Shown piece after piece: positions 3,496 to 5,383 of a stretch of 64,000 nt of DNA. Source of the stretch: Atopobiaceae bacterium. Lineage in GTDB: Bacteria > Actinomycetota > Coriobacteriia > Coriobacteriales > Atopobiaceae. The DNA lies in NCBI GenBank assembly GCA_022483015.1, contig JAKVOB010000001.1, positions 1,822,902 to 1,886,901 on the forward strand, read 5' to 3'. A program made the position numbers and the translations under genes. The notes below the pieces were generated by a model, which ran no database searches, was not told the origin of the DNA, and saw only the letters and a program-made list of their open reading frames with translations. How positions within the stretch are numbered: the stretch's first letter is position 1; each line of letters starts with the position of its first letter.

Positions 3496-4854
3496 CTAGG
3501 CGAACACCGCGCCCAGAGGCAGCACGATGTTGCCCAGGATGGCCAGCACCATGACCACCACGAACATCACCCTGCCGAAGAAACGCGCGAAGGGTTCGTC
3601 CTTTCGTCCGTGCTCGGAACGGATGTTCTCGATCTGGATGATGGCCAACGCCGCGGCGATGATGGTCATGATGCCCCAGACGTTGACGTACTCGAGGAGC
3701 CCCAGCGACAGGGCGTCAGGCACGAGGGCCGCGCCGACCATGATGTTGGACACCGTGCCGAAGAGGGCGCCGGGGATCATGCCAACGGTGTCCACGCGGT
3801 GGTTGCCGCAGATGTAGATCATGATGAGCACCCAGGCCGAAGTCCCGTACATGGCCAGGAAGCACTTGAAGTAGAGCCCATAGCCATCTCGCGTCACCAT
3901 GAACGACGTCACGAACTCCGAGGTGACCGGTGCCTCGGTCACGGCCGGGTCGCCCTGCGTCGAGTTGTAGACGTGGGCGTTCTGGGCCCATGAGACGTCA
4001 CGGACCGTGAAGCCGCTCACGCTGATGGAGCTGTTCACGGCAGAGTCCTCGAGGTCCGGGTCGAGGATGACGTCCTGCGCCTTGTACTCGCTCTCGAGGT
4101 AGATGTTGCACTGCTGCGACGAGAGCGGGAAGCGTGCCGTGTCGAAGTTCTTGGTGATGACCACCTTGACGCGTGCCAGCTGGTAGGTCTCGTCGCCGTT
4201 GACCTCCTCGCTCAGCACGTCGATGCTGTCGATGGTCCCCTTGAAGATGTTGAAGTGATGAACCATGTCGAGGTCAGGGCTGCCATTCCACTTGAACCAG
4301 ACGAGGAACGTGGTGGTGAACTCAGAGTTCTTGAGGTCGATCGTCGAGACGTTCTCGAGATAGGTCCCCGTGAGGACGTGCGTGGCATTGCCCGAGGCTG
4401 CCAGGTCGTTGGCCGCCGAGATCTCGGACTGGGTCGACGCAGAGTCGGGATCGAAGTAGTGGGCGCGCGAGTTCTCAGCCGACATGTGCATGCTCATGCA
4501 GGCCAGCGCCATGAAGGCGACACCCACCACCGTGAAGACGATCGCCCACTTGATGGTGAGGTAGCGCTTCCACGGCTCGAGCTTGCGGAAGTCACGCACG
4601 CGCACGCGGCGGCGTTCGGCGTTCTTCTTCTTCGCATACTTATGGACGTCGATGAACGCACGGGGACCGGCCTTCGCGGCGGCGTTCGGGTCGAGGGCGA
4701 CCTTCTCGTAGCGAGGGAGCGGCTTCTCCTCCCCCGCTACGGTCCCATCGGAGGTGGCGCCCCCCTTACCCGCAGGGGGTTCCGAGGTGGTGGGCTCACC
4801 CTTCGAAGCGGCGTCCTTGTCCTTCTCGGTATGACCGTCCCTGCTGGCTGCCAT
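3496..4854 (-). CDS. Pentameric ligand-gated ion-channel-like membrane protein with extra N-terminal TM
   Basis: 452 residues. A charged, Pro/Lys-rich cytoplasmic N-terminus (1-100) leads to a membrane segment at about 101-122, then a roughly 200-residue domain, then four membrane segments (about 325-349, 355-378, 387-407, 425-451). The soluble domain ends its conserved core with FDTARFPLSSQQCNIYL (237-253), which matches the F/Y-P-F-D-S-Q-x-x-x-I-Y-L signature of the Cys-loop region in prokaryotic pLGICs such as GLIC. The ECD-then-4-TM order also matches. This is remote homology read by eye. Family proteins form cation or anion channels gated by ligands or protons; the ligand here is unknown. 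The leading TM segment and long cytoplasmic tail are unusual. An alternative is an uncharacterised DUF family. Confidence 0.55.
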   Translation of the reverse strand: MAASRDGHTEKDKDAASKGEPTTSEPPAGKGGATSDGTVAGEEKPLPRYEKVALDPNAAAKAGPRAFIDVHKYAKKKNAERRRVRVRDFRKLEPWKRYLTIKWAIVFTVVGVAFMALACMSMHMSAENSRAHYFDPDSASTQSEISAANDLAASGNATHVLTGTYLENVSTIDLKNSEFTTTFLVWFKWNGSPDLDMVHHFNIFKGTIDSIDVLSEEVNGDETYQLARVKVVITKNFDTARFPLSSQQCNIYLESEYKAQDVILDPDLEDSAVNSSISVSGFTVRDVSWAQNAHVYNSTQGDPAVTEAPVTSEFVTSFMVTRDGYGLYFKCFLAMYGTSAWVLIMIYICGNHRVDTVGMIPGALFGTVSNIMVGAALVPDALSLGLLEYVNVWGIMTIIAAALAIIQIENIRSEHGRKDEPFARFFGRVMFVVVMVLAILGNIVLPLGAVFA

Positions 4855-4976
4855 GGAGCGTTCCCTTCAGCTGATACCTGTCTGTTGACACGATACTAGC
4901 GAAAGTCGACCACGCACATGCACCAGGACGACGAGCGGCAGGAATCCCCGCGATGGGTCGCACGCCTCATGCGTGC

Positions 4977-4982
4977 TACACT
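4977..4982 (+). promoter_or_regulatory. Probable -10 box of rnpB
   Basis: TACACT ends eight bases before the predicted 5' end of the RNase P RNA, the spacing expected for a sigma-70-type start. The -35 region is not close to consensus. Confidence 0.4.
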
Positions 4983-4989
4983 AACCCCT

Positions 4990-5344
4990 GCGAAGTGGGC
5001 CAGACGACCGCTCCACGGGCTTGCCCGTGGTGAGGAAAGTCCGGGCTCCATAGGGCAGGATGCCGGCCAACGGCCGGGCGGGGTGACCCGACGGATAGCG
5101 CCGCAGAAAAGAAGACTCCCACCGACCCTTCGGGGCCAAGGGAAAAGCTGAAACGGTGGTGTAAGAGACCACCAGCGTCACGGCGACGTGGCGGCTTGGC
5201 AAGCCCCATCCGGAGCAAGCGCAAATAGGAGTGCCACGGGCTGGCCCGGCCTGCACTCGGGTTGCGCGCTAGAGGGCAGCGGCAACGCTGTCAGCAGATA
5301 AATGGTCGTCCAACGACAGAACCCGGCTTATCGGCCCACTTCGC
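4990..5344 (+). ncRNA. rnpB: RNase P RNA (bacterial class A)
   Basis: Catalytic RNA of ribonuclease P, which removes tRNA 5' leaders. The two ends pair: GCGAAGTGGGCC at the start with GGCCCACTTCGC at the end. Conserved core pieces are present in order: GAGGAAAGTCCGGGCTCC (near 5032), an acggatagcgccgcagaaa segment (near 5090), a cggtggtgtaagagaccaccagc segment (near 5154), and the 3' core cagataaatggtcg leading to acagaacccggctta. The length of about 355 nt is normal for actinobacteria. It lies alone on the plus strand between two minus-strand genes. Confidence 0.95.
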
Positions 5345-5383
5345 GCCCTTAGGGGCACCCCTCGACGCGACCCGGGGCGTCCC

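Follow-up and report, generated by a model that had tools for sequence, protein, structure and literature searches.

Animals use pentameric ligand-gated ion channels (pLGICs, or Pro-loop receptors) as neurotransmitter receptors, and the role of their bacterial relatives is a long-standing question. The described member most similar to the protein analyzed here, both in predicted structure and in whole-length profile comparison, is GLIC, the proton-gated channel of Gloeobacter violaceus. Both have an extracellular beta-sandwich, a Pro loop devoid of the cysteines, four membrane helices (M1-M4), a short M3-M4 loop, and an extracellular C-terminus. However, the two are only about 15% identical, and GLIC has an M1 proline (P204), the acid of the FPxD motif, and a 17-residue segment after strand beta-2, which are missing here. 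All bacterial members known to Tasneem and colleagues in 2004 had a signal peptide (PMC549065), in contrast to the putative transmembrane anchor, TM0, of the protein described below. ELIC, DeCLIC, and other bacterial pLGICs share the ligand-binding and four-helix core, and N-terminal additions, including PBP-I or Cache domains, occur among them (PMC549065, PMC9897478). Those additions are ligand-binding domains placed between signal peptide and core, whereas the addition in our protein is a transmembrane helix preceded by a cytoplasmic tail.

Relatives encoded on Azospirillum and Streptomyces plasmids show 22-28% identity over a matched 35-53%. They resemble our protein in the short segment after beta-2 (VWFRW in L097), in GALF at positions 6'-9' of M2, and, in L097, in the absence of the M1 proline; they differ in starting with a signal-peptide-like segment. 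The distant relative on plasmid pAB510b of Azospirillum sp. B510 (L099, 1785-4534) is encoded immediately before genes annotated as CheW and as MCP four-helix-bundle proteins, a neighborhood in line with an old chemoreceptor proposal. Among open-licence PMC papers, we found none on a pLGIC whose ligand-binding domain has its own transmembrane-helix anchor and none on a pLGIC family in the anaerobic groups considered here, an absence which is weak evidence.

The gene and its parts

The window, that is, the whole stretch of 64,000 nucleotides analyzed here, contains at 3496-4854 an open reading frame of 452 codons with an ATG start and a terminal stop. The frame had already been recognized in a sequence-only reading, to which we add that it lies on the minus strand. 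Relatives keep the reading frame at 31-55% identity: three loci in two further Atopobiaceae genomes encode proteins of the same length at 53-55% identity, four more Atopobiaceae genomes do so at about 31%, and other relatives range from 31 to 42%. Intact relatives at such distances point to a real gene under selection, not a chance frame. Hydropathy analysis gave five membrane segments (97-127, 326-351, 356-390, 381-413, and 419-452), the strongest N-terminal window being 104-122 with a peak of 2.33 and the other four segments being C-terminal. The features are as follows.

3496-4854, minus strand: gene of the pLGIC-like subunit, 452 residues, ATG start (frame conserved among relatives)
4549-4854, minus strand: predicted N-terminal cytoplasmic tail, residues 1-102, charged, disordered, and variable (pLDDT and lengths in relatives)
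4477-4548, minus strand: putative TM0 anchor, residues 103-126, preceded by a W-x-(K/R)-(K/R)-type motif (hydropathy, model helix, and family conservation)
4390-4440, minus strand: predicted extracellular helix alpha-1, residues 139-155 (AlphaFold2 model)
3889-4386, minus strand: predicted extracellular beta-sandwich, residues 157-322 (Pfam, AlphaFold2, Foldseek, and profile alignment)
4111-4131, minus strand: Pro loop FPLSSQQ, residues 242-248, FPxD with S for D (family alignment; motif as defined in PMC4795631)
3802-3879, minus strand: predicted M1 helix, residues 326-351, with A334 instead of the kink proline (model and alignment)
3718-3789, minus strand: predicted M2 pore helix with the M2-M3 proline, residues 356-379 (model and alignment, inferred register)
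Positions in M2: D355 as -1', F365 as 9', and P379 as 23' (register from the M2-M3 proline and the Azospirillum relative)
3610-3702, minus strand: predicted M3 helix, residues 385-415 (AlphaFold2 model)
3502-3606, minus strand: predicted M4 helix, residues 417-451 (model and profile alignment with GLIC)

Evidence for a divergent Pro-loop receptor

Taken singly, the sequence was a marginal member of the superfamily. In a Pfam scan of the 452-residue protein, Neur_chan_LBD was matched at E = 8e-6, with 25.8 bits against a cut-off of 26, and no further family was matched; the NCBIfam LIC match (E = 1.6e-4) was far under its cut-off, and a search of PDB sequences returned weak matches only, to GABA-A rho1 (E = 0.0017) and to GLIC (0.04 or worse). 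The addition of relatives made the case strong: a profile of 27 family members matched GLIC chains in the PDB at E values of about 1e-6 to 7e-8, over the stretch 65-353 of 360, from the first strand through M4. The resemblance of the C-terminal pattern to GLIC M4, noted earlier by eye, is visible in this alignment.

The predicted structure led to the same result. An earlier AlphaFold2 model, built from nine close relatives, had a pLDDT of 68.6 and fused M3 with M4, whereas the model built on the deeper, 27-member alignment (numbered from residue 80) reached a mean pLDDT of 84.7 and a pTM of 0.74. It comprises a helix at 94-131, a second helix at 139-155, beta-sandwich strands between 158 and 322, and transmembrane helices at 326-351, 356-377, 385-415, and 417-451; together with the hydropathy profile, it bears out the proposed four C-terminal membrane segments. 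Foldseek placed GLIC first (E = 7.2e-15, TM-score to target 0.74, 319 columns), followed by GABA-A rho1, GluCl, and glycine receptors, matched across both domains, and all 50 matches listed were pLGICs. The single-chain model was thus matched to GLIC over both the extracellular domain and M1-M4, the comparison that the sequence-only reading had proposed as a check. The outcome it had named as speaking against a channel homologue did not occur, since the beta-sandwich and the four-helix bundle are both predicted and no non-channel family appears among the matches listed. A coincidental likeness of fold in a protein from a non-channel membrane family could account for the marginal Pfam and single-sequence PDB scores; however, with a profile E value of about 1e-7 over both domains, only pLGICs among the Foldseek matches listed, and no alternative Pfam match, we regard it as extremely improbable.

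The most conserved pLGIC positions were listed by Jaiteh and colleagues (Table 1 in PMC4795631), and we scored them in the 27 aligned members. The Pro-loop proline, found in 100% of superfamily sequences, is P243 here and is present in 27/27 members; it is the one absolutely conserved feature, and its presence upholds superfamily membership. The residue before it (F in 71%, Y in 25% of the superfamily) is F242, again aromatic in 27/27. These two residues open FPLSSQQCNIYL (residues 242-253), which the earlier reading had likened to the pLGIC core. Also present are the pre-M1 arginine (94% in the superfamily; R322, 24/27), the aromatic residue of the beta-9 core (W/F/Y; F282, 27/27), the M2-M3 loop proline (88%; P379, 23/27), and phenylalanine at M2 9' (13%, against 75% Leu; F365 in the inferred register, 27/27). 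Three positions deviate. The acid of FPxD (Asp 93%, Glu 3%) is replaced by S245, the family having D in 8, E in 16, and S, A, or N in 3 of the 27 sequences, so that this protein would lack the canonical salt bridge to the arginine before M1. The M1 kink proline (77%, Gly 5%) is missing family-wide (A334 here; Ala in 26 members, Gly in one), and the basic residue at M2 0' (79%) is T356 here and proline in most members. No pair of the metazoan disulfide cysteines was found around 242-248; the only cysteine there is C249, just after the loop. GLIC, too, is not known to have a basic residue at M2 0'. In terms of sequence, the deviating positions mark a divergent branch of the pLGIC superfamily, and the searches and the predicted structure taken together indicate that the 452-residue protein is a Pro-loop receptor subunit of a divergent family.

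Anchor, extracellular domain, and pore

An extra N-terminal membrane segment had been proposed from the single sequence, and TM0 proved to be conserved across the family. All close members whose N-terminus is intact have it, as 20-25 uncharged residues with a K/R-rich cytoplasmic flank, and a W-x-(K/R)-(K/R)-type motif precedes it (W in 19/23 sequences). In our protein, the uncharged segment has 24 residues, follows a tail of 102 residues, and resembles an uncleaved anchor. The charged tail of about 100 residues described earlier is present here (21 K/R and 15 D/E within residues 1-93); however, it is predicted to be disordered (pLDDT of about 30-40 for residues 1-80 in the earlier model) and varies among relatives from 8 to 165 residues, the longest being in an Eggerthellaceae member, with about 12 residues in most Clostridia, and is therefore unfit to define a subclass.

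TM0 might alternatively be cleaved, either as a signal peptide whose n-region is long or at a lipidated cysteine, leaving an ordinary four-helix pLGIC as the mature protein. A cysteine fitting a PROSITE-like lipobox ends TM0 in most Coriobacteriia members and in Monoglobus (the window protein and about eight others listed), and the distant Azospirillum and Streptomyces relatives begin with signal-peptide-like segments. We nevertheless consider cleavage unlikely: the close relative L051 has lost the lipobox, none of the listed Firmicutes apart from Monoglobus has it, the hydrophobic stretch of 20-25 residues runs on beyond the cysteine, a conserved A-x-A site is absent, the model predicts a continuous helix at 94-131, and it would be extraordinary for an n-region to comprise 46-165 residues.

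In the extracellular domain, the profile alignment finds no counterpart to the 17 residues of GLIC that follow strand beta-2, which makes the domain compact. This piece of GLIC lies close to loop A and strand beta-3, a region that belongs to the classical ligand pocket, and its loss makes an altered binding site probable. As judged from the aligned sequences, the marks of the family are the TM0 anchor, Ala or Gly in place of the M1 proline, a Phe at 9' in all members, and an extracellular domain that is smaller than that of GLIC by about 17 residues. The earlier suggestion of a new subclass is supported as far as an anchored family is concerned, but the Azospirillum and Streptomyces relatives are compact yet signal-peptide-like at their start, so that the anchor marks only a sub-family of a broader compact-domain group.

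M2 is the best-conserved stretch of the family; its conserved residues include F9', N370, and the M2-M3 proline. If P379 is taken as 23', the gap-free alignment of the Azospirillum relative between G6' and P23' (GALF...P, identical spacing) supports the assignment of D355 to -1', F365 to 9', S369 to 13', and M372 to 16', although the HMM alignment pairs N370 with the M2 asparagine of GLIC through a gap, and the numbering could shift by one. Position -1' is D in 22/27 members and Asn in one Atopobiaceae clade; the acidic ring suggests a preference for cations, and the Asn clade may differ.

Given these features, we estimate at roughly 80% the probability that the gene encodes a pLGIC subunit with an added TM0 and cytoplasmic tail which forms a ligand-gated pentameric channel, a reading built on alignments and the predicted fold. 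Five copies would assemble with M2 lining the pore, and a small molecule or ion from outside would bind to the extracellular domain, moving the Pro loop against the M2-M3 loop and opening the ring of Phe 9'; the acid at -1' would favor cations. TM0 would act as an uncleaved signal anchor that holds the beginning of the extracellular domain at the membrane, next to the M1-M4 bundle, with a possible part in assembly or gating.

The same fold could instead serve a receptor that conducts no ions, sensing a ligand outside and passing the signal on through TM0 and the charged cytoplasmic tail. The long charged tails in Atopobiaceae, the lack of a kink proline in M1 throughout the family and of the FPxD acid in this protein, and the chemotaxis genes adjoining some bacterial relatives (Azospirillum B510) are consistent with such a receptor. 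Its tail, however, is unconserved and nearly gone in Clostridia, and M2 is the most conserved part, as expected if selection preserves a pore, which makes a non-conducting receptor very unlikely in our judgment.

Distribution, gene neighborhood, and potential role

Relatives were searched for in 140 genomes of the family, 397 of the order, and about 400 each of the class and the phylum. The pLGIC family is patchy (7/140 family genomes and 13/397 order genomes). A single-sequence scan of genome contigs found no relatives; an alignment-based scan found 25 loci and added Anaerovorax, Neglectibacter, Monoglobus, Ohessyouella, Anaerostipes, further Clostridia, and Listeria ilorinensis. The family was found in Atopobiaceae, Eggerthellaceae, several Clostridia, and one Listeria; the viral contigs searched contained no relatives, and a defence-system search gave no match for the pLGIC-like gene. 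In the tree, the window sequence groups with other Atopobiaceae and one Eggerthellaceae sequence (98/100), apart from a second coriobacterial clade. One Atopobiaceae genome (G019; loci L002 and L034) has two tandem pairs of pLGIC paralogues, which makes heteromers possible. The paralogues are followed there by a radical-SAM/SPASM gene, and in G020 (L011) a single pLGIC copy precedes the same gene; this linkage, which occurs in two close relatives, was rejected for the window, whose radical-SAM homologues map elsewhere.

In the window, the pLGIC gene is followed downstream by a DAPG-hydrolase-like gene and two TetR-type regulators, and a DUF6020 gene and the gene of RNase P RNA lie upstream. 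The latter (RF00010, E = 1e-94; 4992-5346, plus strand) is directly upstream and divergent, and spurious open reading frames at 4976-5256 are its antisense. The upstream repeat in the RPLAGILPYGARTFL frame, considered as a regulator of the pLGIC gene, was rejected since it is single-copy and is also antisense of the RNase P RNA gene. The neighborhood contains no potassium-type channel gene, and a local partner of this type was likewise rejected, the homologue in the same genome being about 0.41 Mb away. Within L086 (5434-10500, at about 2.24 Mb), this Kv-like gene lies near cas1 and an apparent CRISPR array, a run of repeats in which the motif SWRPLNSPVGT recurs. Among the 140 family genomes, 11 have this channel and 7 a pLGIC, the two overlapping only in the window genome. 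In two rabbit-gut Atopobiaceae, a distance of about 2 kb separates the pLGIC gene from a small two-helix gene resembling a potassium channel (Ion_trans_2; L016, 4768-5223; L050, 5303-5767).

At 11 clostridial loci (L038-L044 and L054-L057), the pLGIC gene stands in an apparent operon with a six-helix potassium-type channel, the membrane-protein genes following it by a few to some tens of bases. The channel belongs to Ion_trans: the copies scanned match this Pfam family at E values between 1e-18 and 6e-28, and the six that were aligned have the filter TTVGYGD. The loci also encode one or two small membrane proteins that resemble ECF transporters or GtrA weakly. The order is pLGIC, a small ECF-S-like protein, the TTVGYGD channel, and a second small membrane protein, as in L038 (6920-9017), L039 (7068-9173), L055 (7066-9105), and eight similar clostridial loci. 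Two Anaerostipes loci keep the first small membrane protein only, and none of the partner genes was found beside the pLGIC gene at the Listeria, L052, and L058 loci. In G295, an 806-residue frame (L087, 4102-6522) matches the six-helix channel and the second small membrane protein in its N-terminal part and continues into a ROK-family kinase domain, which may be a fused frame or a real fusion.

From this gene order, we hypothesize that in Clostridia the ligand-gated channel would depolarize the cell and the presumably co-transcribed six-helix potassium-type channel would reset it, in a unit that would also take in the two small ECF/GtrA-like membrane proteins. The wider proposal, that compact five-crossing pLGICs form a subclass spread in Coriobacteriia, Clostridia, and Listeria and that in Clostridia it acts as a ligand-triggered electrical signaling unit, is tentative, and we consider it possible rather than probable. 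The M1 kink proline and the FPxD salt bridge are held to be central to pLGIC gating; a family that has lost the former, and in this protein also the latter, with a near-unchanged pore helix serves as a natural test of the requirements for gating. If the proposal is true, the signaling unit would serve anaerobic, largely gut-associated bacteria. As to the role of bacterial pLGICs, the pairing of the gene with a potassium-type channel in the apparent clostridial operon is the most concrete clue obtained here.
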